In this document: positions 23,409-41,091 of the stretch, piece after piece | Numbering within the stretch: position 1 is the first letter of the stretch | Layout: every line of letters starts with the position of its first letter | Source: a virus | Length of the DNA stretch: 45,624 nt | IMG/VR virus record: IMGVR_UViG_3300036841_000445 | Span: 1 to 45,624 of that record | Reading direction: 5' to 3' (one strand) | The notes under the pieces: generated by a model | Told to the model about the DNA's origin: nothing | The model's database searches: none | Seen by the model: the letters and a program-made list of their open reading frames with translations, nothing else | Position numbers and translations under genes: made by a program

Positions 23409-24455
23409 ATGAAGCTCGCTGACTACTCGCAGAGCGTCGTCAGCCTCCGACCCCTCTTCGGCCTCGGCCCGCCGGTCCGTGAGCGCCGCGGCCAGGCCGT
23501 GCCGAAAGGAGGCATGGCCAGCCTGGATGCCGCTCTCCGCGCCGGCGGCTTCGAGGGCGTCTTCCACTACCTGGCCGGCACGTCGGGCTACGTCCGTCGC
23601 ATCGAGACGGCCACCGTCGTCGCCGGCATCCGGGCGAAGGGCTGGCCGCAGGCCGGCATCGATCTGCCCTACTCGCCAGCCAACTGCAACGGCGCAGCGG
23701 CAGCAGCGCGGGCCCGCGACACCTACGGCTTCCGGCCCGGCACCGGCTTTCAGATCTACCTCGACATCGAGCCGTCCCGGTTCCAGGCCGACCCCGGCGG
23801 CTGGCCGGGCGCGGCCGATCGCTGGTGCGACCAGATCCGCGCCGCCGGATTCGTCCCGGGCGTGTACGGCGTGGACGCCACGCTGGCCGCCTGCGCGAAC
23901 CACGCCGACCGGATCTGGCGTGCGAAGCCGGGCATGTGCGACCCGGCAGGCGCCGGCCTGGCAGCGCCGTTCTTCGCGGGCCGCCGCGCGGTCCAGTGCG
24001 GCTCCGGGGCCTGGGGCGGCGTCACGTTCGACGTCTCGTATTCGCAGTTCAACATCGCCGCGGCCCCGAGCGGGGGCGGCGGAGGAGGCGACGACTTGGC
24101 CATCACCGACCCCGAGATCGCCACCGGCATCGCGCACATGGCCGTCTACACGTTCCTGCCGGGCCTCGCCGACCCGTCGACCATGGTCGCGGACTACGCG
24201 GCCGCCCTGGAGGGTGGCCGCGGCCTCGGCGACCTCGTGCAGGAGTTGCACAACGACAGCCAGCACCCCGACCAGCAGGCGTACAACGCCCCGGCGCTGC
24301 TGGCAGCCATCCAGGCCCTGACCCAACAGGTCGCCGACCTGCAGGCACAGCTCGCCAACCTGGGACCGGGCGGCATGGTCTCAGACGACCATATCGCCGA
24401 GGTCGCCGGTGCGGCGGCGGTCGCCGAGATCGAGAAGCGACTGGAGAATGGATAG
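23409..24455 (+). CDS. Endolysin-like protein with Rv2525c/DUF1906 glycoside-hydrolase-like domain
   Basis: 348 residues, ATG at 23409 with CAGGAG upstream. Residues about 38-220: MASLDAALRAGGFEGVFHYL, then RRIETATVVAGIRAKGW, FQIYLDIEPSRF (the D-x-E strand end of a TIM-barrel), VPGVYGVDATLAAC, and AVQCGSGAWGGVTFDVSYSQ. This matches the Rv2525c-like glycoside-hydrolase-like domain found in many actinophage lysins. A Gly linker is followed by a helical C-terminal part. It opens the lysis region and should cut cell-wall glycan. No export signal, so it would need a holin. Confidence 0.75.
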   Translation: MKLADYSQSVVSLRPLFGLGPPVRERRGQAVPKGGMASLDAALRAGGFEGVFHYLAGTSGYVRRIETATVVAGIRAKGWPQAGIDLPYSPANCNGAAAAARARDTYGFRPGTGFQIYLDIEPSRFQADPGGWPGAADRWCDQIRAAGFVPGVYGVDATLAACANHADRIWRAKPGMCDPAGAGLAAPFFAGRRAVQCGSGAWGGVTFDVSYSQFNIAAAPSGGGGGGDDLAITDPEIATGIAHMAVYTFLPGLADPSTMVADYAAALEGGRGLGDLVQELHNDSQHPDQQAYNAPALLAAIQALTQQVADLQAQLANLGPGGMVSDDHIAEVAGAAAVAEIEKRLENG

Positions 24456-24501
24456 GGCCGTCGTGCGCATCGCGCTCGCGAAGCGGCTGGCCGAGTAGCG
24501 C

Positions 24502-24792
24502 ATGTTCGATCCGGCCACGCTGGAGGCCATCGCGCGCGCCGGTGGCTGGGTCTTCGCAGCCATCTCGCTGGCCGCGGCCGGCCTTCTCTTCTTCCGGGCG
24601 GTCGCCAGTGGCCAGCTGGTGCCGGGCCCGGTGCATGCACGGGTTCTGGACCAGAACGACCGCCTCAACGAGGCGGTCGCCAAGCTCACCGGGTCCGTCG
24701 ACACGTTCGCCACCCAGACCACAGGAACACTCCGGGAGCTGAGAGATGACGTCGCCGAGCTACGCGGCCTCGCGCGGCCCCGGAGGGACTGA
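24502..24792 (+). CDS. Small membrane protein with coiled coil (holin candidate)
   Basis: 96 residues, ATG at 24502. One hydrophobic segment (GGWVFAAISLAAAGLLFFRA, residues about 14-34), followed by a charged coiled coil (RVLDQNDRLNEAVAKLTGSV, TLRELRDDVAELRG) and an RPRRD tail. One-TM proteins with a coiled coil next to endolysins are common holin or Rz-like accessory proteins. Assigned on topology and place. Confidence 0.6.
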   Translation: MFDPATLEAIARAGGWVFAAISLAAAGLLFFRAVASGQLVPGPVHARVLDQNDRLNEAVAKLTGSVDTFATQTTGTLRELRDDVAELRGLARPRRD

Positions 24793-24793
24793 G

Positions 24794-24967
24794 GTGCCGC
24801 TCCTCAGCTGGCTGGCGCGGCGGCTCCGCACGGTCAGGGAGCTGGAGGCCGAGGCGGACCGGCGCGAGAAGCGGACCAGCGTGACCACCGCCAAGGCGCA
24901 CCAGGCGATCGACCGTGCCGCGCGCCTGGCCCGAGAGATGGAGCAGGCCGGACGGGCCCTCCGGTGA
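24794..24967 (+). CDS. Small basic helical protein in lysis region
   Basis: 57 residues; the GTG at 24794 is chosen because it follows the previous stop by one base and gives VPLLSWLARRLRTVRELEAE, an amphipathic helix, then ADRREKRTSVTTAKAHQAID. No membrane segment. It overlaps the next gene by four bases (GTGA). The family is not recognised; a regulator or partner of the neighbouring membrane proteins is possible. Confidence 0.5.
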   Translation: MPLLSWLARRLRTVRELEAEADRREKRTSVTTAKAHQAIDRAARLAREMEQAGRALR

Positions 24968-25254
24968 CGGCGCTGGCCTGGCTGCTCATCATCCTGTCGC
25001 CAATCGACTGGTGGGCGGCAGGCGTGGTCCTGCACGCGCTCCGGCGACATCGGGAGGCCAACGCGCTCCGCGGCCTCCTCGCGTACTTCGGGCTCACCGC
25101 CCTGGCCGCGACCGCGATCGCCGTCATCGCCCTGAACTATCTGCTGGGGATGCCGCTGCCGCGCGGCGCCGGGTTCGCCCTGCTCGCCGTGGCGCTGGTG
25201 CTGATGTCGGTGCCGGCCGGCGGCTTCCTCTTCGACCACTACCGCCGGCGCTGA
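24964..25254 (+). CDS. Three-segment membrane protein (holin-like)
   Basis: 96 residues, GTG overlapping the previous TGA. Hydrophobic segments: LAWLLIILSPIDWWAAGVVL, LLAYFGLTALAATAIAVIAL and GFALLAVALVLMSVPAGGFL, with a positively charged end (DHYRRR). Segment number and length suit a class I holin. Several other membrane proteins compete for that role here (24502, 26196, 26543), so which one times lysis is unknown. Confidence 0.6.
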   Translation: MTALAWLLIILSPIDWWAAGVVLHALRRHREANALRGLLAYFGLTALAATAIAVIALNYLLGMPLPRGAGFALLAVALVLMSVPAGGFLFDHYRRR

Positions 25255-25284
25255 GCCGGCCGCAGCCCACACGACGGAGGTCCC

Positions 25285-26181
25285 ATGCCCACCCGCTACT
25301 TCGGCCTGCTTCCCGATCGGTTCGACGAGCGCGACCTGCTGCTGCACCAGCACGTCAGCCTGCCGCTGGCGGCCGCCCTGCCGCCCAGCGTCGACCTGCG
25401 CGCCACCGGCGCGCTCGCGGACCCGATCTTCGACCAGGGCGAGCTGGGGAGCTGCACGGCGAACGCCATCGCCGCGGCGCTGATGTACGCCCAGCGCGCG
25501 CAGCGGCTGCTGCAGCACGTCACGCCGGCGCGGCTCGCGCTCTACTACTGGGAGCGGGTCATCGAGGGCTCGACGTCGGAGGACGCCGGCGCCGAGCTCC
25601 GCGACGGCCTGAAGGTGGTGGCCGGGAAGCCGGGCTACGTCGACGAGACCGAGTGGCCGTACGACGTCGCGCGCTTCGCCGACGATCCGGGCCCTGCCGT
25701 CGCCGTGGACGCCGCCAAGGACCACGCGACGAAGTACATGCGCGTGAGCGTCAACGCCACGGCCATGAAGCAGGCCCTGGCCGCGGGGTTCCCGGTCGTC
25801 GTCGGGTTCGACGTCTACGGCCCCATCCAGTCGGACGAGGTCGCGCAGACCGGCGTGCTGCCGATGCCGACTCCCGGCGAGCAGGCCGTCGGCGGCCACG
25901 CCGTGCTGCTGGTCGGCTACGACGACGCGGCGCGGACCTGGCTGTGCCGGAACTCGTGGGGCGACGGCTGGGGCCAGGGCGGCTACTTCACCGTCCCCTA
26001 CGGCTACCTCGACAGCGCCGCGTTCGCGACCGACTTCTGGACCATCCAGCTGGTGGCCGAGGGCTCCAGCCCGACACCGCCGGCGCCGCCTACGCCCACC
26101 GATCCCCTGCACGAGCTGGCTGCGGTCCTGCGCCAGTTCGCGACCAACATCACCTCGTGGCTCTCAAGCCACGACCTGTAG
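25285..26181 (+). CDS. Papain-family (C1) cysteine peptidase
   Basis: 298 residues, ATG at 25285 preceded by GGAGG. Catalytic residues in the right order: Cys in FDQGELGSCTANAIAAALMY (about residue 57), His in VGGHAVLLVGYDD (about 204), Asn in CRNSWGDGWGQGGYF (about 224). The N-terminal SVDLRATG and the GSC motif are typical of bacterial C1A peptidases. A Pro/Thr linker at the end leads to a helical tail. No signal peptide. Its place between membrane proteins of the lysis cassette suggests a lytic or envelope-protein-cleaving role, which is unusual for a siphophage. Confidence 0.85.
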   Translation: MPTRYFGLLPDRFDERDLLLHQHVSLPLAAALPPSVDLRATGALADPIFDQGELGSCTANAIAAALMYAQRAQRLLQHVTPARLALYYWERVIEGSTSEDAGAELRDGLKVVAGKPGYVDETEWPYDVARFADDPGPAVAVDAAKDHATKYMRVSVNATAMKQALAAGFPVVVGFDVYGPIQSDEVAQTGVLPMPTPGEQAVGGHAVLLVGYDDAARTWLCRNSWGDGWGQGGYFTVPYGYLDSAAFATDFWTIQLVAEGSSPTPPAPPTPTDPLHELAAVLRQFATNITSWLSSHDL

Positions 26182-26195
26182 GAGGACCAGTCCCG

Positions 26196-26546
26196 ATGAA
26201 CCAGTACCTCAAGTTCTTCTCGGCCGCCGCGCTGGCGATCGTGAGCGTGATCGTCGCGCAGTTCAACGACGGCAAGATCACGGCTGCCGAGTGGGTCGTG
26301 ATCGCGACGGCGACCGCCAACGCGGTCAACACGTACCTGGTCCCGAACCTGCCCGGGGCCGTCTCCTCGGTGCTGAAGCTGCTGGTGGTGGCCGTGGGCG
26401 CAGTGACGGCCGGGCTGACCGCCCAGGTCATCAGCGGCGGGCTGTCGCAGACCGAGATCGTCACGCTGGCGCTGCTGGCCGTACAGGCCCTGCTCGTCTA
26501 CCTGGCGCCGAACACGCAGCCGAGCCCCGCCGCCTTCCAGCGGTGA
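26196..26546 (+). CDS. Holin-like membrane protein
   Basis: 116 residues, ATG at 26196 with TAGGAGGA upstream, the best ribosome site of the cassette. Three hydrophobic stretches: FFSAAALAIVSVIVAQFND, WVVIATATANAVNTYLVPNL and LKLLVVAVGAVTAGLTAQVI with LALLAVQALLVYLAPNTQ. The first helix followed by NDGKITAAEWVVI is often seen in r1t/actinophage holin-type proteins. Overlaps the next gene by four bases. Confidence 0.65.
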   Translation: MNQYLKFFSAAALAIVSVIVAQFNDGKITAAEWVVIATATANAVNTYLVPNLPGAVSSVLKLLVVAVGAVTAGLTAQVISGGLSQTEIVTLALLAVQALLVYLAPNTQPSPAAFQR

Positions 26547-26746: not shown

Positions 26747-26754
26747 CGCGTCTG

Positions 26755-26836
26755 TCGGCGGGGCGGGACTCGAACCCGCACGGCCCTCAGCCAGCCGGGT
26801 TTAAGCCGGCCGCGTCTCCCGTTCCGCCACCCGCCG
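26755..26836 (-). tRNA. tRNA-Leu (anticodon UAA)
   Basis: Read on the minus strand: acceptor CGGCGGG pairs perfectly with CCCGCCG at the 3' end, followed by discriminator A. D stem GCG/CGC with a loop bearing GGAACGGGAGA. Anticodon stem GCCGG/CCGGC with loop CUUAAAC, anticodon UAA. A long variable arm marks class II, and the T arm is GCGGG-UUCGAGU-CCCGC. No CCA is encoded. Length 82 nt. The UAA isoacceptor reads UUA, the rarest Leu codon in high-GC genomes. Its 5' end abuts the stop of the TPR gene with no gap. Confidence 0.95.
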
Positions 26837-27889
26837 TCAGGTCGCGATCATCGCCTCGTCGAGCCGGCGCACGGCCGGCTCCCAGGCGTGGAACGCGAGG
26901 TCGCGCTCGCGGACGCCGCGGATGCGCAGCTGCCGGTCGACGAGCCCGGCGGCGCGGGCCCGCGGCCACGCGTCCGTCAGCAGGGAGCACGCGTGCTCGA
27001 GCTCGCCGAGACGGGCGTAGGCGCTGGCCATGTCCGTGCTCGCCGCGATCCGGTCCGACTCCAGCTCGCGCGGGTACTCATCGATGACCTGCTCGAGGAT
27101 GGGCACCGCCTCCGACGGCCGGCCGCCCAGCAGGTAGATATTGCCCACGAAGGCCCTGTTCAGGGTCTCCGGCCAGGTCAGGCCGTACAGGTCGCGCGAC
27201 GGCGCGTGGCCGCGCGCCCAGGCCGCGGCGACGCGTTCGACGTAGGTCAGCGCCGCGTCCATCTCGCCGGCGACGGCGTGCTCCTCGGCCTGGCGCAGCA
27301 GGACCTGCGCGACGAGCGCGATCGGGGCGCCGACGTCGAGCAGCCGCTCCGCCTTGTCGAGCAGCTCGCGGACCTTCGCCGGGCTCTGGAGCGCCTTCCC
27401 GCGCTGGACAGCGCTGTCGATGTCCGCGTTCCAGGTCAGGGCCAGCGCGCGCAGGTTATCGTCGCCCGCCTCCAGCGCCCAGATGTCCGCCGCGATGAAG
27501 GAGTTCGCCGCCTTGTAGTCGTTCCCGACGAAGCGGTACGCGAGCCCGGCCATCGCGGCGGCGCGCGACGCGACCTGCTGGAGCTGGCGCTGGTGCAGCG
27601 GCGGCGCCTGGGGGACCAGGCTGCCGACGATGGACGCCAGACCCTCGGCGTAGCGGAGGAGCGGCAGCGGCTCCAGCTCGTGCCAGTGCTCGTACAGGCG
27701 CCGGCAGACGGTGTCGAGGTCCTCGACCAGCCTCGCGCCGATCTTCACCCGCTTGCCGATCGACTCCATGAAGGCGATCTGCGCCCAGATGCCGAGACCC
27801 GCCAGCGTCGCCGCGTCACGAAGGAACTCGCGCCTGATCATCTCCGCCTCGCTGGTGCCGCCCGCCAGGATCACTTCCCACTTTTCCAC
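26837..27889 (-). CDS. TPR-repeat protein without HTH (regulator-like)
   Basis: 350 residues, GTG at 27889. An initial MIRREFLRDAATLAGLG segment is the type of linker that follows the HTH in actinobacterial XRE/TPR regulators, but there is no HTH ahead of it. The rest is helical repeats: QVASRAAAMAGLAYRFVGND, YKAANSFIAADIWALEAGDD, KVRELLDKAERLLDVG, SEAVPILEQVIDEYPRELES, MASAYARLGELEHACSLLTD. Such TPR folds bind peptides or partner proteins, as in Rap/AimR-type receptors. It follows two membrane-protein genes in one leftward operon, and its stop touches a tRNA. Regulator or sensor role is inference. Confidence 0.75.
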   Translation of the reverse strand: MEKWEVILAGGTSEAEMIRREFLRDAATLAGLGIWAQIAFMESIGKRVKIGARLVEDLDTVCRRLYEHWHELEPLPLLRYAEGLASIVGSLVPQAPPLHQRQLQQVASRAAAMAGLAYRFVGNDYKAANSFIAADIWALEAGDDNLRALALTWNADIDSAVQRGKALQSPAKVRELLDKAERLLDVGAPIALVAQVLLRQAEEHAVAGEMDAALTYVERVAAAWARGHAPSRDLYGLTWPETLNRAFVGNIYLLGGRPSEAVPILEQVIDEYPRELESDRIAASTDMASAYARLGELEHACSLLTDAWPRARAAGLVDRQLRIRGVRERDLAFHAWEPAVRRLDEAMIAT

Positions 27890-27892
27890 AGC

Positions 27893-28240
27893 TCAGCACG
27901 CCTCGCAAGCTGGCGGTTCCGCGGACTGCGGCGCGCCGAGCGCGGCGATCACCTGCTGGGCGGGGTGCTGGGCGCGCGCGAAGGACGGCGGGCCGAGGGC
28001 GCGGTCGACCAGCAGCATGCTGGTCGGGAACACGCCGGCCGCGACCGCGAGGCACGGCGACCAGGGGACGCGGATGCGCTTGGCGGGCCGCGTTCGCCGT
28101 ATCCACTTCGGCGCCAAGACGAGCTCGGCCAGTAGCGCCAGGACGAGGTAGAGCAGGGCGAGGAGGAAGATCAGGGGCACCCGCCACGCCAGGGATCCCG
28201 GGCCCGTGGTCAGCCAGCCGCGCAGGCGAGGCGGGATCAC
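27893..28240 (-). CDS. Two-segment membrane protein in the leftward operon
   Basis: 115 residues; GTG at 28240, overlapping the TGA of the small gene upstream (GTGA). Hydrophobic segments VPLIFLLALLYLVLALLAEL and PCLAVAAGVFPTSMLLVD, joined by a basic loop (PKWIRRTRPAKRIR). The C-terminal 40 residues are Ala/Pro/Gln rich and end ACEAC. The TPR gene starts four bases after its stop. The family is not recognised; a lysogeny-expressed envelope protein or a partner of the TPR protein are the options. Confidence 0.6.
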   Translation of the reverse strand: MIPPRLRGWLTTGPGSLAWRVPLIFLLALLYLVLALLAELVLAPKWIRRTRPAKRIRVPWSPCLAVAAGVFPTSMLLVDRALGPPSFARAQHPAQQVIAALGAPQSAEPPACEAC

Positions 28241-28350
28241 AGCGAGAGCCCCAGTGTGATCAGAGCGAGGCCGAGGGCGGCAGTCGCCATGCCCACGACG
28301 AAGATCAAGTCCGTCTGGTCGAGCTGTCCCGCGCGCCGTGCCGTCCGCAT
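28237..28350 (-). CDS. 37-residue single-pass membrane peptide
   Basis: ATG at 28350; the product is a basic head (MRTARRAGQLDQTD) followed by one hydrophobic segment (LIFVVGMATAALGLALITLG). Its TGA overlaps the next GTG. First gene of the leftward three-gene operon that ends with the TPR protein. A peptide of this size next to a TPR protein is also a candidate partner or signal precursor, but there is no direct evidence. Confidence 0.5.
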   Translation of the reverse strand: MRTARRAGQLDQTDLIFVVGMATAALGLALITLGLSL

Positions 28351-28483: not shown

Positions 28484-28546
28484 TTGACAGCCTACTCGTT
28501 GGGAACATCCGGTGCAAGTGGAACATCAGGAACGACAGGAACACAT
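28484..28546 (+). promoter_or_regulatory. TTGACA box and five 9-bp iterated repeats
   Basis: TTGACA at 28484-28489 is followed at 28502-28546 by five phased nonamers: GGAACATCC, GGTGCAAGT, GGAACATCA, GGAACGACA, GGAACACAT. The repeat lies 34 bases before the ATG at 28580 and between divergent genes. It probably binds a regulator made nearby. No convincing -10 was found at 16-18 bases. The rest of 28351-28579 shows no gene. Confidence 0.55.
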
Positions 28547-28579: not shown

Positions 28580-28780
28580 ATGCCGGACGAGGAGCTGGAA
28601 GAGGGGGAGCTGCTGAGCACGACGCAGGCGGCCCGCATCCTGAGCGTGGACCGTCACACCGTGGTGCGGTGGATCACCCAGCACCAGCTCGATGCGATCC
28701 GGCTGCCGAGCGGCGTCTACCGGATCCGGCGCGCCGACATACGGAAGATGCTGGAGAGAGGAAGGGAGGAGGACTTGTAG
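28580..28780 (+). CDS. Small HTH (excisionase/MerR-type) DNA-binding protein
   Basis: 66 residues, ATG at 28580. After an acidic head (PDEELEEGE) it has LLSTTQAARILSVDRHTVVR and WITQHQLDAIRLPSGVYRIR, RADIRKMLE. The T..AA..L.V...TV.rWi....l...r...G..Ri...di.k.l order is the helix-turn-helix plus wing of the excisionase/HTH_17 family. It stands at the edge of the regulatory region and may act as a Cro- or Xis-like switch protein. A second protein of the same family is next to integrase (39650). Confidence 0.75.
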   Translation: MPDEELEEGELLSTTQAARILSVDRHTVVRWITQHQLDAIRLPSGVYRIRRADIRKMLERGREEDL

Positions 28781-28838
28781 GTCATGCTAGCGGTTTTGCG
28801 GACAGCGTTGCTATCAACGACTTACCCTACCTGACGGC

Positions 28839-29006
28839 ATGGCATGGCCGAAGGGCGTCGCACGTCCGCAGAAGGATCGAGACGCGATTGCGCGCGGCAA
28901 GACGGGTCAGGCCGCCTCGGCGTCACACCGCCAGGCGATCAGCGAGGGCCTGAAGCGCCTCTGGCTCCGACGGAAGTCTGGAGGGGGAACCGCCGGGGGC
29001 CAGTAA
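28839..29006 (+). CDS. Small basic NUMOD3-like protein (55 residues)
   Basis: ATG at 28839. The product reads MAWPKGVARPQKDRDAIARG, KTGQAASASHRQAISEGLKR, LWLRRKSGGG. The HRQAISEGLKRLW stretch is like the NUMOD3-type DNA-binding motif (.e.r.kiSe.lk). It is basic throughout and likely binds DNA. Weak ribosome site. Its last 68 bases overlap the 3' end of the leftward XRE gene. Bases 28781-28838 hold a small inverted repeat (CGTTG-CTAT-CAACG, 28806-28819) but no other gene. Confidence 0.5.
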   Translation: MAWPKGVARPQKDRDAIARGKTGQAASASHRQAISEGLKRLWLRRKSGGGTAGGQ

Positions 29007-29328
29007 GCCACGCGCCCAGGGCGGCCACGACGTCGTGGCCCCCCTGCTCCATTGCGCGGCACAGGATGTCCCCGGGCGGCGCGATCACGCCCGCCTCGTA
29101 CGCCTCGATGGTCTCCGCCAGCAGCCCGGGATTCCGCGGGCTGCTCTCGTTGATGGCCGCGGCGAAGGCTGACGTGCTCATGTGCGCGCGCCGGCGGGCC
29201 TCGGCCATCACCTCGCGCAGAACGTCCTCGATCGTTCGAGGCTCAGCCTCGAACTCCACCCGCAACACTCTCACCTCGAACGCCTCCATCAGGGGCACAC
29301 GCCCCCTCTCTCTCTTCCGAACCGGCAT
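28939..29328 (-). CDS. XRE-type HTH regulator
   Basis: 129 residues with ATG at 29328. Head MPVRKRERGRVPLMEAFE, then EDVLREVMAEARRRAHMSTS, AFAAAINESSPRNPGLLAET, IEAYEAGVIAPPGDILCRAM. This fits the XRE helix-turn-helix: l...R.......s...fA.ai.......l....I..yE.G...P..dil.ra. The start could lie at a later Met (MEAFEV). It is transcribed leftward with the repressor-like gene at 29375 and probably takes part in the lysis-lysogeny choice. The C-terminal 25 residues overlap the small rightward gene. Confidence 0.65.
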   Translation of the reverse strand: MPVRKRERGRVPLMEAFEVRVLRVEFEAEPRTIEDVLREVMAEARRRAHMSTSAFAAAINESSPRNPGLLAETIEAYEAGVIAPPGDILCRAMEQGGHDVVAALGAWLTGPRRFPLQTSVGARGASGPR

Positions 29329-29374
29329 GCCAGTGTAAAGCCGACCTGTCAGGTTGGGAAACGTGACGTTCGTC

Positions 29375-29746
29375 CTAGTTGCCGTCCGCGGTACCCACGC
29401 TCCTTGGGAATTCCATGGGTTTCTGTCCCTGGAGTGCCAAGAGGCGCTGCACGTGCTCCTGCACGATCGCCAGGTGCACGCGCACCTCGCGGAGCTGGTC
29501 CTGGAGGGCGCGCCGGTCCTCCTCGTCGAGCGCGAACTCGTCAAGGCTCAGCTTCCATGCCTGGGCGATCTTGAATAAGAGCCACGATGGAGGATCGTTC
29601 GTGCCAGAGATCCAGAAGTCCACCGTCGAGCGGCTCGGCGTCTTCCCGTAGAGCGGCCGAACGCGCTCGCGAAACTCATCACGCGAGCCCCAGTGATTGC
29701 AGGCGTGCTCGATGAACCGACCTGCCGGCGGTCGTGAATCCTCCAT
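29375..29746 (-). CDS. Repressor-like HTH protein with C-terminal coiled coil
   Basis: 123 residues, ATG at 29746. SRDEFRERVRPLYGKTPSRS, TVDFWISGTNDPPSWLLFKI, AQAWKLSLDEFALDEED follow an XRE-like HTH (the VDFWI...NDPP...l.kIa.a..ls.dEf part), then RALQDQLREVRVHLAIVQEH, VQRLLALQG forms a coiled coil fit for dimerisation. It is divergent to the early operon and the operator palindromes lie between, which makes it the best candidate for the lysogeny repressor. No LexA-type autocleavage domain is present. Confidence 0.65.
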   Translation of the reverse strand: MEDSRPPAGRFIEHACNHWGSRDEFRERVRPLYGKTPSRSTVDFWISGTNDPPSWLLFKIAQAWKLSLDEFALDEEDRRALQDQLREVRVHLAIVQEHVQRLLALQGQKPMEFPRSVGTADGN

Positions 29747-32647: not shown

Positions 32648-33937
32648 ATGCCGGCACGCATCGACCAGCTGACGGATGCCCAGCGGGCTCGGATGGACGA
32701 GTGGGCGTCCAAGTGGATCGAGATCGGCCTCCGGACCGGTGAAGCCGACTGGGAGCGCTTCGAGGCAGCGGCCAAGAAGTGCTACCAATTCGCCGGCATT
32801 CCCTGGCCGAATGTGGTCGTGCGCGTGCCGTCGCCGCTCGTGGGTGCCTTCGCAGCACCCATCGCACTCCATGTCCTTCGGACGACCGCGGCCGGCCGCG
32901 GTCGTCCGGTGGGCGGCGCGGTGGACGGCGCGGTGCGCGGCGCGGTGGGCGGCGCGGTGGGCGGCGCGGTGCGCGGCGCGGTGGACGGCGCGGTGGGCGG
33001 CGCGGTGCGCGACGCGGTGGGCGGCGCGGTGGACGGCGCGGTGGACGGCGCGGTGGACGGCGCGGTGGACGGCGCGGTGGACGGCGCGGTGGACGGCGCG
33101 GTGGGCGGCGCGGTGCGCGACGCGGTGCGCGGCGCGGTGGACGGCGCGGTGGACGGCGCGGTGGACGGCGCGGTGGACGGCGCGGTGCGCGACGCGGTGC
33201 GCGGCGCGGTGGACGGCGCGGTGGACGGCGACTGGTACCGCTATCTGGGCGGACAATTCTGGGCCGGCGGCTGGGGCTGGGGCCCTGCGTATACCTCGTT
33301 CTTCCGCGAGGTCTGCTCGCTGACGTTGATGGGCGACATGTGGGACCGCGGTCGCGCCTACGAGGCAACGGTCGAATCGGCCTGCTGGTGGTGGCCGACG
33401 ACGAAGTTCGTCATGGTCTGCAACCGACCGCAGGTCATCGAGTTGGAGCAGGTCCAGCCGCGGGGCTGGGGTTCGCATCGCCTTCACTGCACCACTGGTC
33501 CAGCGGTCGCATGGGAAGGCTGGAAGCTCTACTTCGTCCATGGCGTGCGAGTGCCTGAGCGCGTCATCGAGACACCCGAGACGCTGACCACGCAGGAGGT
33601 GCTGACCGAGCCGAATGCCGAGGTGCGGCGGGTCATGATCGAGCGCCTCGGCGCCGACCGCCTGCTGTCGGGCGCCCGTGAGAAGGGCGGCCCCGGCGTC
33701 TTCGTCATGCACGAGGATGCAGACCAGCTCGGCCACCGCAGGCGCCTGCTCAGGCTGCCCCTGCTCGACGACGAGCCCCTCGTCATGGTCGAGGTCACGA
33801 ACTCCACTCGGGAGCCGGATGGGACCTGGAAGTCCTACATGCTCCGCGTCCCGCCGACGATGAGCACCTGCGCGCAGGCGGTGGCCTGGACGTTCGATGT
33901 CGATGAGCGCGAATACGCGCCGGCGGCGGAATCGTGA
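32648..33937 (+). CDS. DUF6745-like protein with GAVx tetrapeptide repeat
   Basis: 429 residues, ATG at 32648. Head: LTDAQRARMDEWASKWIEIG. Residues about 90-193 are 26 tandem GAV(D/R/G) tetrapeptides. After the repeat, WYRYLGGQFWAGGWGWGPAY, ATVESACWWWPTTKFVMVCN, HRLHCTTGPAVAWEGWKLYF and VHGVRVPERVIE match the DUF6745-type domain, in which the HC.dGPAv.w..G...y..hGv.vP.wvi strands recur. DUF6745 relatives often carry four-residue repeats in the same place. The function is unknown. Confidence 0.7.
   Translation: MPARIDQLTDAQRARMDEWASKWIEIGLRTGEADWERFEAAAKKCYQFAGIPWPNVVVRVPSPLVGAFAAPIALHVLRTTAAGRGRPVGGAVDGAVRGAVGGAVGGAVRGAVDGAVGGAVRDAVGGAVDGAVDGAVDGAVDGAVDGAVDGAVGGAVRDAVRGAVDGAVDGAVDGAVDGAVRDAVRGAVDGAVDGDWYRYLGGQFWAGGWGWGPAYTSFFREVCSLTLMGDMWDRGRAYEATVESACWWWPTTKFVMVCNRPQVIELEQVQPRGWGSHRLHCTTGPAVAWEGWKLYFVHGVRVPERVIETPETLTTQEVLTEPNAEVRRVMIERLGADRLLSGAREKGGPGVFVMHEDADQLGHRRRLLRLPLLDDEPLVMVEVTNSTREPDGTWKSYMLRVPPTMSTCAQAVAWTFDVDEREYAPAAES
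32915..33226 (+). repeat. Coding minisatellite, 26 x 12 bp
   Basis: The unit is GGCGCGGTGNNN, where NNN is GAC, CGC or GGC; three units start GAC instead of GGC. Copies are otherwise identical at the DNA level, including third bases, so the array is recent or actively homogenised. It encodes a helix with a four-residue period. Copy number in the assembly may be collapsed or mis-stated. Confidence 0.9.
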
Positions 33938-36687: not shown

Positions 36688-36901
36688 GGAGTCGCGGTTC
36701 CAGCCGGTGCAGACCGCGAGCGGGCACGGGGTCATGGATCGCCATGACCCCGGCCACCCAGTCGTCCGCGCCGGGCTCGCCGGGTGCGTCGCCGAGCAGA
36801 TCGCGAGCGTGCTGAACGACCTCCACGAGGACAACGTCTTCCTGCGCGCGATGTGCCGGAACCAGGGCCTGGAGATCCGGCCCGATAGGAGGGCCGGGTG
36901 A
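36680..36901 (+). CDS. Small hypothetical early protein
   Basis: 73 residues, GTG at 36680. SGHGVMDRHDPGHPVVRAGL, AGCVAEQIASVLNDLHEDNV, FLRAMCRNQGLEIR. A helical segment with His/Asp-rich front. The stop overlaps the YqaJ start (GTGA), so the two are coupled. Family not recognised. Confidence 0.5.
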   Translation: MAEESRFQPVQTASGHGVMDRHDPGHPVVRAGLAGCVAEQIASVLNDLHEDNVFLRAMCRNQGLEIRPDRRAG

Positions 36902-37821
36902 GCGGCGCCCTCCAGCTGGTGCACTCCAACCGGCCCGACTGGCTGGAGTGGAGGCGCGGCGGCATCGGCGGCTCGGACGCCGCCGCCGTCGCGGGCCTGT
37001 CGCCGTTCTCGAATCCCTGGATGGTGTGGGCGGACAAGCGCGGCCTGCTGCCGCTCGACCGCCAGGAGGACCGGCGCCAGCGCGCCGGCCGGCTGCTGGA
37101 GCCCGTCGTCATCGAGTGGTTCGAGGAGGACACCGGCATCGACGTGCGCGATCGCCAAGTCGCGGTCGTGCACGCCGACCACGAGTGGATGCGCGCGACG
37201 CTCGACGGCCGCGCGTACCAGGACGTCGAGGGCCACCGGAACCCGCCCTTCGGCGTGGTGGAGGTGAAGACGTCCAACGGGCTCGACGGCCAGTGGACGG
37301 AGGGCGTGCCCGAGCACGTCCACATCCAAGCTCAGCACCAGATGGCCGTCGACGACGCTGCGCAGGCGTACGTCGCCGTCATGCTGCGCGGCGACTCATT
37401 CCTGTGGTTCCAGGTGGACCGGGATGACACGGCCATCGGCATCCTGATGGAGATCGAGGAGCGCTTCTGGCGCAAGCACGTGCTCGCCGGCGTGGCACCG
37501 GAGGTGGACGGTTCCTCAAAGACCGCCGAGGCGCTGCGCGCCGCGTTCGCGCGCCCGGAACGCGAGACGACGGAGCTGCCACCTGACGCACGCGGCCTGG
37601 TCGCCGAGTTTCTGCGCGCGGACCTCGCGGCCGTCGCCGCCAAGGCGGTCCGGCAGAAGGCCGCGAATCGGCTGATGGCGCTCATGGGCGACGCCGAGGT
37701 CGGTCTCATCGACGGCCGGCCGCAGGTGCGCTGGCCGATCGTGAAGCGGCGCGGCTACACCGTCCAGGCCACCGAGTACCGGCGCCTGACGGTGGTTGGA
37801 GGGATCGACGATGAGCGGTGA
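36898..37821 (+). CDS. YqaJ-family exonuclease (recombinase partner of RecT)
   Basis: 307 residues, GTG at 36898. RRGGIGGSDAAAVAGLSPFS (start of YqaJ domain), RAGRLLEPVVIEWFEEDTGI, MRATLDGRAYQDVEGHRNPP, GVVEVKTSNG and HIQAQHQMAV give the metal-binding Glu/Asp/E-x-K and the Gln-rich helix of lambda-exonuclease-like nucleases. It chews 5' ends to leave 3' single strands for RecT. It overlaps RecT by 11 bases, the usual exo-annealase pair. Confidence 0.9.
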   Translation: MSGALQLVHSNRPDWLEWRRGGIGGSDAAAVAGLSPFSNPWMVWADKRGLLPLDRQEDRRQRAGRLLEPVVIEWFEEDTGIDVRDRQVAVVHADHEWMRATLDGRAYQDVEGHRNPPFGVVEVKTSNGLDGQWTEGVPEHVHIQAQHQMAVDDAAQAYVAVMLRGDSFLWFQVDRDDTAIGILMEIEERFWRKHVLAGVAPEVDGSSKTAEALRAAFARPERETTELPPDARGLVAEFLRADLAAVAAKAVRQKAANRLMALMGDAEVGLIDGRPQVRWPIVKRRGYTVQATEYRRLTVVGGIDDER

Positions 37822-38668
37822 GCTGACGCAGCGCCTCCAGACGGCGGCCGTCGCCCAGCAGCAGGGCCAGAGCCTGACGAAGCCCGGTGCGCGGCCGGCC
37901 AACGTCATGCAGCTCTTCCAGTACGACGTGTACCGGACGGAGCTGATGCGCGTGCTCAACGACAAGGACATGGTCCGACGCTTCCTGCAGGCCGGGCTGA
38001 CCGAGTGCATGCGCATCAAGAAGCTGGCCGACTGCAACTGGCAGAGCTTCGCCGGCGCGCTGATGCAGTGCGCGGTGACGAAGCTGGAGCCGGGGCCCGC
38101 GCTCGGCCACGCCTGGCTGCTCCCGTTCAAGGGCAACGCGACGTTCGTCCTCGGCTACCCCGGCGTGGTCCAGCTCGGCTGGCGGTCGGGCCTGGTCGCG
38201 GACATCCACGCCGCCAGCGTCTGCGAGGGCGACGAGTTCTTCTACGACGAAGGCGCCAACGTCGTCCAGCACAGGCGGCCTACGCGCGGAAAGCGCGGCA
38301 CCGCGTACGCGTACTACTCGGTCGTCCGCTACGTGAACGGCGGCCGGCATATCGAGTTCATGACGCGCGAGGAGGTCGACGAGCACGCTCAGCGCTACTC
38401 GCCGTCCTACCAGTCCAACGACGCGAGCTCGCCCTGGCGGACGAACTTCGACGAGATGGCCGAGAAGACCTGCGTGCTCCAGGGCAAGAAGATGATGCCG
38501 GCCTCCATCGAGTGGGTGAGCGCGGTCTCGGCCGACGAGCGGACCACCATCTGGACGCCGGGCAGCGGCATCCGGCCGGAAGACATCATGCTCCCGGCCC
38601 TGCCCGGACCGGAGGGCGAGCAGGCGGCAGAGGCCGCTCAGGGCACGCTGCTGGGGAGCCAGGGCTGA
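37811..38668 (+). CDS. recT: RecT single-strand annealing protein
   Basis: 285 residues, ATG at 37811 with GGAGGG upstream (a TTG at 37796 would add five residues but is less likely). MRVLNDKDMVRRFLQAGLTE, CNWQSFAGALMQCAVTKLEP, GPALGHAWLLPFKGNATFVL, GYPGVVQLGWRSGLVADIHA and SSPWRTNFDEMAEKTCVLQG are the classical RecT blocks (the a...gLeP....g.aylvPf......q.iiGy.G...la.Rsg pattern). It anneals single strands made by the YqaJ exonuclease. Confidence 0.95.
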   Translation: MSGELTQRLQTAAVAQQQGQSLTKPGARPANVMQLFQYDVYRTELMRVLNDKDMVRRFLQAGLTECMRIKKLADCNWQSFAGALMQCAVTKLEPGPALGHAWLLPFKGNATFVLGYPGVVQLGWRSGLVADIHAASVCEGDEFFYDEGANVVQHRRPTRGKRGTAYAYYSVVRYVNGGRHIEFMTREEVDEHAQRYSPSYQSNDASSPWRTNFDEMAEKTCVLQGKKMMPASIEWVSAVSADERTTIWTPGSGIRPEDIMLPALPGPEGEQAAEAAQGTLLGSQG

Positions 38669-39104: not shown

Positions 39105-39636
39105 GCAGAATGCCGGGCCATTCGTGGTGTTCGACGTCGAGTCGGACGGCCTGCATGGAGAGGGTTTCGCGGTAGGCTGGGCCGTCGTTGAGCTGGACCC
39201 GGTTGGAGGTGTGCCGATCCTCCTGGCGGACGGCATCGCGGTCGGACCGGCGCCACAGTCGAACGGCTGGATCCGCGAGAACGTCCTGCCCCATCTTCCC
39301 ACGCCGACGCATGCCGACCGCCGGAGCGTCCGGGACGCGTTCTGGCAGGTGTGGGAGCACTGGCGCGAGGAGGGCGCTCGGCTCGCTGCCGACGTGGCGT
39401 GGCCAGTCGAGGCGCGCTTCCTGGCGGCCTGCGTAGACGACGCACCGGCCACGAGGAGCTGGGGCGGACCATACCCGCTGATCGACATCTCCTCAGTTCG
39501 ACTCGCCGCGGGCCTGGACCCGCTCGGCGAGGAGGTTCGCCTCCCTCCAGAGTTGCCCGCCCACAACCCGCTGGCGGATGCCCGCCAGTCTTCGCGGCTG
39601 CTGACGGAGGCGCTGCGCCGTCGGGAGCAGCGATGA
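39097..39636 (+). CDS. DnaQ-like 3'-5' exonuclease
   Basis: 179 residues, GTG at 39097. Exo I: FVVFDVESDGLHGEGFAVGW (the D-x-E pair). The middle has EGARLAADVAWPVEARFLAA (the W/F and D of Exo II). Exo III: PAHNPLADARQSSRLL (His...Asp five residues apart). This is the DEDDh family order. Likely to trim single strands in recombination or to degrade host nucleic acid. The full motif set suggests an active enzyme. Confidence 0.75.
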   Translation: MAEQNAGPFVVFDVESDGLHGEGFAVGWAVVELDPVGGVPILLADGIAVGPAPQSNGWIRENVLPHLPTPTHADRRSVRDAFWQVWEHWREEGARLAADVAWPVEARFLAACVDDAPATRSWGGPYPLIDISSVRLAAGLDPLGEEVRLPPELPAHNPLADARQSSRLLTEALRRREQR

Positions 39637-39649
39637 AGAAGGTGTCGCG

Positions 39650-39880
39650 ATGGAGGTGATCGCGCTGCGCCGGGCCGCGGCGCCGGTGGACCCGCCGCAG
39701 CTGCTGCGCCCGCGGGAAGCGGCCGCCCGGCTGAGCATCAGCGAGCGCACCTTCTGGCGCTACATCCGCAAGGGCCTGCTCCCGCACGTCCGCCTGGGCG
39801 AGGACCAGCGCACGGTGCGCGTGCCGGTCGCCGCGCTCGACGAGTACATCCGGTCGCGCACGGTGAGGAGCAGCGCGTGA
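39650..39880 (+). CDS. xis: Excisionase-like HTH protein
   Basis: 76 residues, ATG at 39650. LLRPREAAARLSISERTFWR, YIRKGLLPHVRLGEDQRTVR, VPVAALDEYIRSR match the HTH_17/excisionase family (l.p.eaA..L.is.rt..r.ir.G.lp.vr......r.rvp..al..yi). It overlaps the integrase start by four bases and is almost certainly the recombination directionality factor. Confidence 0.8.
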   Translation: MEVIALRRAAAPVDPPQLLRPREAAARLSISERTFWRYIRKGLLPHVRLGEDQRTVRVPVAALDEYIRSRTVRSSA

Positions 39881-41091
39881 CCAGGCGCGGCGCCGGCGAG
39901 GGCTCCATCTCGCAGCGCAAGGACGGACGCTGGCAGGCCCGCATCGACCTCGGCGTCGACGCGCTCGGCCGCCGCCGGCGGAAGTACCTGTACGGCGCCA
40001 GCAAGCCGGAGGTCGTACGCAAGCTGCGCGCCGCGCTGCGTGGGCGGGAGGCGGGGCAGCTCGCCGGCGGCGACCAGCAGGGCCGGACCGTGCGCGCCTG
40101 GCTGGAGCACTGGCTGGAGACCGTGCATGCCACCCGCGAGCCGAACACGTACGCGGCCTACCGGCGAGCGGTGCACGTCCACCTGGCGCCCGCGGAGGGC
40201 CCGCCCGGGCTGGGGAGGATCCGGCTCGACCGGCTGGAGCCCGCGCAGATCGAGCGCTTCCTGCTCGCCAAGCAGCGCGCCGGCCTGGCGCCCTCGCACA
40301 TCCATCTCCTGCGCGCGGTGCTCAGTTCAGCACTGCGCCGGGCGCAGCGCCAGGGCCTGGTCGGCCGCAACGCGGCAGCAGCCGGGCTCGTCGAGCTGCC
40401 CACCATCGACCGCGGCGAGCATCAGGTCCTGAGCCTCGAACAGGCGCGCGCCTTCCTGGCCAGGATCAAGGGCGACCGCCTCTACGCGCTCTTCCTCACC
40501 GCCCTCATGCTCGGCCAGCGCCGATCCGAGATCCTCGGCCTGCGCTGGCGCGACGTCGACTTCGAGGGCGAGCGGCTGCGCATGATCTACAAGCTGGCGC
40601 GCGTCGACGGCGTGTGGCAGCTCCGGCGCCCGAAGACGGTCGGCAGCCGGCACACGCTGCCCATGCTGCCACCGCTCGCCGCGGCGCTGCGCGAGCACCG
40701 GGTCCAGCAGCAGTGGGAGCGGGAGGTCGCGGGCTCCAGCTGGTGGATGATGGAGCACCACGGTCAGCCGGTGGAGCTCGTCTTCACATCGGAGCGCGGC
40801 GCGCCGCTGCGCGGCGACTACGTGCGCGAGCGCTTCCAGAGGGAGCTGGTCGCGGCCGGCCTGCCGCGCCTGCGCTTCCACGACACCCGCCACTCGGCGG
40901 CCAGCATCATGCTCGCGCTGGGGGTGCCGCTGAAGACCGTCTCGCTGGTGCTCGGCCACGCCAACTACCGGATCACCTCGGACGTCTACGGCCACTTGGA
41001 GGACGACGTGGTCCGCGAGCAGCTCGCTGGCCTGGGCGCGGCTTGGGCGGATGAGCCCGAGCCGCCCGTTCTGCGGGAGGAGGAGGCATAG
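39877..41091 (+). CDS. int: Tyrosine site-specific integrase
   Basis: 404 residues, GTG at 39877. N-terminal arm-binding region (GSISQRKDGRWQARIDLG), a core-binding SAM-like part (WLEHWLETVHATREPNTYAA), then the catalytic domain: Arg in GQRRSEILGLRW (about residue 215), Lys in RPKTVGSRHTLP, His-x-x-Arg in RFHDTRHSAAS (about 335-338), His in LGHANYRIT, and the nucleophile Tyr in SDVYGH (about 371). All five catalytic positions are present, so it should be active. The probable attP starts at its stop codon. Confidence 0.95.
   Translation: MTRRGAGEGSISQRKDGRWQARIDLGVDALGRRRRKYLYGASKPEVVRKLRAALRGREAGQLAGGDQQGRTVRAWLEHWLETVHATREPNTYAAYRRAVHVHLAPAEGPPGLGRIRLDRLEPAQIERFLLAKQRAGLAPSHIHLLRAVLSSALRRAQRQGLVGRNAAAAGLVELPTIDRGEHQVLSLEQARAFLARIKGDRLYALFLTALMLGQRRSEILGLRWRDVDFEGERLRMIYKLARVDGVWQLRRPKTVGSRHTLPMLPPLAAALREHRVQQQWEREVAGSSWWMMEHHGQPVELVFTSERGAPLRGDYVRERFQRELVAAGLPRLRFHDTRHSAASIMLALGVPLKTVSLVLGHANYRITSDVYGHLEDDVVREQLAGLGAAWADEPEPPVLREEEA

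Follow-up and report, generated by a model that had tools for sequence, protein, structure and literature searches.

A four-part cargo operon in a putatively temperate actinobacterial virus encodes an NsdA-like TPR protein without a DNA-binding domain

What is the role of a compact operon that joins a 37-aa hydrophobic peptide, a two-pass membrane protein, a TPR protein, and a tRNA-Leu(UAA) gene beside the lysogeny genes of a virus? We examined this locus in record IMGVR_UViG_3300036841_000445, in which the analyzed stretch as a whole (the window) spans 45.6 kb with 70% GC. An earlier note on this DNA had interpreted the locus as an HTH-less actinobacterial TPR protein whose operon also encodes membrane proteins and a tRNA, and further as a possible peptide-sensing system. 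The former part stands and the latter is not supported.

The window belongs to a soil actinobacterial virus with the gene order of temperate actinophages. The plus strand carries the terminase (6641), lysin, C1 peptidase, and holin-like genes (23409-26546), recombination genes (36898-38668), and an excisionase-like gene with a tyrosine integrase (39650-41091); the holin, recombination, and excisionase names were given by sequence resemblance. Regulators occupy 28580-29746, with a divergent HTH_17 gene on the plus strand and two HTH genes on the minus strand. The four-part operon lies on the minus strand, opposite to the phage late genes, between the lysis genes and these regulators, in agreement with the claimed placement beside lysogeny genes. 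The C1 enzyme, a papain-family cysteine peptidase at 25285-26181 adjoining the holin-like gene, is unusual for a lysis region and is also found in a related phage (G001, 69% identity). Elsewhere in the window, GC-rich tandem repeat DNA at 32648-33937 encodes a protein of 429 aa, in which imperfect GAVDGAVR-type repeats form a long series.

The first operon gene (28237-28350, minus strand) encodes a 37-aa peptide, with an ATG start after a GGAGG Shine-Dalgarno-like sequence and a GC3 of 0.86. Hydropathy predicts a single membrane pass, with hydrophobic residues from 15 to 37, that is, up to the last residue, and no family match was obtained in Pfam or NCBIfam. Its stop codon is overlapped (GTGA) by the GTG start of the second gene (27893-28243, minus strand; GC3 0.92), which encodes a 116-aa protein with two predicted transmembrane segments. 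The second segment is weak in hydropathy, and a single-sequence AlphaFold model (pLDDT 60) places helices at residues 18-43 and 63-82. This membrane protein had no match in Pfam, PHROGs, NCBIfam, or PADLOC and no relative among viral contigs. The third gene (26837-27889, minus strand) extends from a GTG at 27889 to a TGA (stop 26839-26837), encodes the 350-aa TPR protein, and, given its GC3 of 0.97, is clearly coding. The membrane and TPR ORFs lie in one frame with only the TGA and one codon between them, a feature that the earlier note missed and that two ORFs would show by chance in 1 of 3 cases. Together with the tRNA gene, these elements are all present where that note had placed them, in a compact operon.

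Searches at E<=1 with Pfam returned only generic TPR models for the TPR protein, and PHROGs and PADLOC returned nothing. The NCBIfam model NF053720, which describes NsdA-family TPR-like regulators, matched with an E value of 1.3e-17; the alignment runs from position 101 to 431 of the 432-position profile, and its score of 64.5 bits lies below the curated cut-off of 75. The NsdA-type C-terminal TPR region (~330 profile positions) is therewith present. A set of 396 genomes sampled from the phylum was searched for relatives, followed by one of its orders. HTH-bearing chromosomal relatives were found, the best being L158 (E 4.5e-20, 30% identity), which has a C-terminal RIRGVR motif in common with the phage protein, and an alignment-based search recovered 27 further relatives. 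In nearly all of the collected relatives, an RRxFL-type motif is preceded by a stretch of about 100 residues or more that includes the HTH and linker, whereas the phage protein starts only 18 residues before this linker and has no N-terminal HTH. In frame upstream of its start is the membrane ORF ending in TGA, not an HTH. The RRxFL-type linker itself is kept, with R19 and R20 invariant among 20 aligned sequences. The view that the protein retains the linker of actinobacterial regulators while lacking their DNA-binding domain is thus upheld and, going beyond it, sequence comparison now allows the protein to be named: it is a distant relative of the NsdA regulators that corresponds to their C-terminal half, the DNA-binding domain having been lost.

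In a tree, the phage protein sits on a very long branch that weakly joins an HTH-less chromosomal protein (L146), a grouping that is possibly an artefact of long-branch attraction. A very long branch, like that of L146, is what a change of constraint would be expected to produce. HTH-less NsdA-type TPR proteins also occur on a chromosome (L146, 1321-2517; L147; probably L160), all from a 4.7-Mb genome (G333) with about 31 family members. Across five of the genomes searched, NF053720-type HTH-TPR regulators numbered 13-31 matches per genome.

The TPR protein was present in 0 of 35 related phages. No close relatives were found in the phage, viral-contig, or genome-contig collections; among plasmids the only matches were proteins of the HTH-TPR type, which aligned in part and at no more than 36% identity, and L158 as a query gave no match among viral contigs. 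Phages were additionally sought through the neighboring terminase, C1 peptidase, and DUF2303-like protein (the last named by sequence resemblance), and those recovered lacked the module. This absence holds for the collections searched and is no proof of absence elsewhere. The earlier note had looked to co-conservation of the peptide, membrane protein, TPR protein, and tRNA, and had taken separate occurrence in relatives as evidence against a joint system. Separate occurrence is largely what we observed: no relative of the module was seen in the phages, viral contigs, and genomes searched, and the chromosomal TPR relatives stand without the partners. Because no relative carries the same operon, conservation gives no support for the four parts acting together.

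The position of the operon is shared more widely than its content. Phages related through the terminase (34-81% identity) carry other minus-strand cargo after their lysis genes. In G001, an HTH_31-DUF5753 gene and a DUF6879 gene follow the holin. In G029, the gene directly after the holin, on the opposite strand (39377-40345, oriented), encodes a TPR protein that lacks an HTH and has a TM-like N terminus; we rejected it as a homologue and regard it as an analogue only, given an hhalign probability of 0.4% against the window protein. It belongs to a paralogue family conserved in chromosomes of the Frankia order, and a further locus (L110) represents the same prophage group as G029. In G005, the minus strand (23662-26277, oriented) carries an HTH-TPR gene, a small gene, and a gene for a DUF4352 membrane protein. 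These are flanked by the lysis genes and by an integrase of the resolvase (serine) type, so classified from its sequence, and the HTH-TPR protein may be the repressor of that phage. By its position, the four-part element is a cargo operon, real and unusual. In mycobacteriophages, variable and lysogenically expressed genes, some of them defensive, likewise adjoin the immunity region (PMC9262239).

The operon ends in a tRNA-Leu(UAA) gene (26754-26836, minus strand), called by ARAGORN and by Rfam RF00005 (50.3 bits; gathering threshold 29). Its acceptor stem (CGGCGGG/CCCGCCG) is fully paired, with an A73 discriminator and a long, class II variable arm, the CCA is not encoded, and the best identity to chromosomal tRNA-Leu(UAA) genes is 88%. 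When folded freely together with its flanks, the tRNA reached a minimum other than the cloverleaf, which at 77% GC is uninformative. As the earlier note had described, the tRNA abuts the TPR gene, with base 1 immediately after the TGA stop and zero spacing. From this abutment it is plausible that RNase P processing of the tRNA defines the mRNA end, since a cut at base 1 would leave that end exactly at the TPR stop codon; tRNA maturation and translation of the TPR mRNA would then compete. Tight spacing is not unique to this phage, as on two Streptomyces plasmids tRNA-Leu(UAA) genes lie 7-8 nt behind a hypothetical CDS (L136, 5012-5097; L137, 2998-3074). We rejected the idea that the gene is an attachment-site remnant; the tRNA is complete and the integrase is 13 kb away.

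TTA codons are very rare in this phage, with 2 in about 13,400 codons (2 of 1,194 leucine codons). A tRNA that meets only two such codons is not for bulk translation, and general codon supply was rejected as its role. One TTA falls in a tail gene and the other at codon 57 (29576-29578) of a candidate immunity repressor of 123 aa (29375-29746, minus strand), which was proposed from weak HTH-repressor matches and its position. The pairing of the tRNA with the repressor codon was spotted after the fact and, with a chance of roughly 2% by gene length, does not constitute a test. A second regulator, a small XRE-like HTH protein with an uncertain start (28939-29328, minus strand), is encoded on the operon strand, further upstream; it shows an XRE-like HTH pattern in its sequence and obtained only insignificant library matches in PHROGs and NCBIfam.

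Divergent from the operon is a gene for a 66-aa HTH_17 protein (28580-28780, plus strand; Pfam HTH_17, E 6.9e-13). Over 50 residues, this single winged HTH protein matched PDB entries 6amk (E 2.8e-4) and 6ama (E 3.6e-4), which we take to be structures of BldC. Its nearest PHROGs family is an excisionase/regulator (E 5.5e-9), so it resembles BldC or may alternatively be excisionase-like, and no viral relative of it was found. Between the divergent 37-mer and HTH_17 genes, just upstream of the latter, lie five 9-bp direct-repeat units (28502-28546): GGAACATCC, GGTGCAAGT, GGAACATCA, GGAACGACA, and GGAACACAT. The three-unit repeat pattern is unique in the window and was absent from 100 shuffles, and in this divergent promoter region the array is a candidate operator. 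The binding sites of BldC are 9-bp direct repeats, which the protein occupies in head-to-tail fashion (PMC5859096). The phage array is GGAACATCA-like and lacks the BldC motif AATTNNNNC; the BldC-like protein and its neighboring array therefore offer a lead on how the operon might be controlled. One plus-strand frame through the repeat bases would give a collagen-like series of Gly-X-X units; since it lies antisense to the gene for the 37-mer, it probably does not represent a gene. The BldC resemblance, the 9-bp array, and the count of two TTA codons with one in the candidate repressor are all new relative to the earlier note.

We tentatively favor, at a probability of roughly 0.45, a cargo operon of the prophage, in which the NsdA-like protein without HTH acts through contact with host HTH-TPR regulators or with a membrane partner. 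Such an accessory operon, filling the variable position that separates the lysis cassette from the immunity region, would probably be expressed in the lysogen. The TPR half might bind host HTH-TPR regulators and block or modulate them in a dominant-negative manner, or it might partner, on the cytosolic side, the two-pass membrane protein to which it is translationally coupled. The divergent BldC-like protein, acting on the 9-bp direct repeats, probably sets operon transcription, and the tRNA-Leu(UAA), if matured from the operon transcript, would permit reading of UUA, including the codon of the candidate repressor. This reading draws on the full-length kinship of the TPR region to the NsdA family with the N-terminal HTH part missing, on operon genes that overlap or nearly touch, on the other regulators and TPR proteins that fill the slot in related phages, on the lysogenically expressed cargo beside the immunity region of mycobacteriophages (PMC9262239), and on the BldC-like neighbor with its repeats. 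Against it stand the sub-threshold NF053720 score, the lack of the same operon in any relative, and the failure of known defense models to match.

Several other explanations were weighed. The operon could serve superinfection exclusion or abortive infection, with the membrane proteins acting at the envelope, the TPR protein as their cytosolic partner, and the lysogen protected from other phages. A membrane protein with a soluble partner, peculiar to one phage and placed between lysis and immunity genes, would suit such a role, for which Cluster N mycobacteriophages provide precedent (PMC9262239), but PADLOC gave no match at E<=1, there is no toxin or nuclease signature, and the TPR protein clearly descends from transcription regulators, so we consider defense doubtful. 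Decaying cargo, in the form of a captured host regulator fragment and tRNA that are functionless at present, would account for a singleton operon and the long TPR branch; it is unlikely in view of the strong codon bias in three ORFs (GC3 0.86-0.97), the intact tRNA with paired stems, and the overlapping, coupled starts. The membrane ORF might also have replaced the HTH, with low-level TGA read-through or coupling anchoring the TPR protein as a membrane-tethered sensor. The common frame of the two ORFs, interrupted by the TGA and one codon, suggested this arrangement, to which we assign the least weight of all, as the frame would coincide in 1 of 3 cases by chance, the TPR gene has its own start, and a fused relative was not found.

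Peptide sensing, as raised in the earlier note, would make the operon an RRNPP- or arbitrium-like lysis-lysogeny module. The signal would be all or part of the 37-mer, with the membrane protein responsible for its export or processing; the TPR protein would bind this signal first and a nearby HTH protein next. The clustering of a TPR gene, a small hydrophobic peptide gene just upstream, and HTH genes fits this scheme, and some enterococcal pheromones are hydrophobic heptapeptides, which gives a precedent for such a signal. At E<=1, however, none of the RRNPP-specific Pfam models matched the TPR protein. A PDB profile search with the TPR family gave RapH an E value of only 0.25 and a second Rap one of 1.3, and designed TPRs, kinesin light chain, and MalT all ranked above RapH. 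NprR appeared among the weak structural matches (Z 7.2-7.3) to a single-sequence AlphaFold model of poor quality (pLDDT 48), but tied with 14-3-3, mTOR, and spliceosome chains, and so no better than unrelated helical proteins. The 37-mer, hydrophobic throughout its C terminus, is unlike the usual Phr or AimP precursor in having no hydrophilic C-terminal mature peptide, the parts of the module are not co-conserved, and a literature search on actinobacterial TPR peptide receptors found nothing direct. Nothing that we found shows that this operon senses peptides, a reading that we regard as very improbable.

HTH-TPR regulators of this family are very numerous in actinobacteria, and we know of no ligand for their TPR halves, so a phage with the TPR half alone presents a small, testable system for finding binding partners. 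With a BldC-like protein and a tRNA that reads UUA as neighbors, it also offers a chance to test whether phages read the developmental state of the host. In the most elaborate form of this idea, a BldC-like protein with its own operator, an HTH-less NsdA-like antagonist of host repressors, and a bldA-like tRNA gating translation of the TTA-containing repressor would together tie lysogeny to that state, a long shot at present.

Compared with known systems, the operon resembles the defense cargo of Cluster N mycobacteriophages in that variable genes stand beside the immunity region, a likeness by position with no shared genes shown. With the RRNPP regulators (Rap, AimR, PlcR, and NprR) the phage protein has helical TPR-type repeats in common, and Rap too is without an HTH; unlike in those systems, there is no significant sequence match and no recognizable propeptide in the operon. 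The NsdA family (NF053720; NsdA and NsdB in Streptomyces), of which NsdA negatively regulates both sporulation and the production of antibiotics (PMC7105598), shares the TPR region over 330 positions and the RRxFL linker, whereas the phage protein has no N-terminal HTH, scores under the curated cut-off, and is encoded on a phage, its operon also comprising membrane protein genes and a tRNA gene. The 66-aa protein is like the BldC family in size, in its single winged HTH, and in the adjacent 9-bp direct repeats, but the phage repeat is GGAACATCA where the BldC motif is AATTNNNNC, and the protein may alternatively be an excisionase. Finally, the phage tRNA has the UAA anticodon, class II arm, and A73 in common with bldA and with the tRNA-Leu(UAA) genes of mobile elements, and it differs from bldA-type genes in its C1-G72 pair, its zero spacing to the upstream stop codon, and its membership in an operon.
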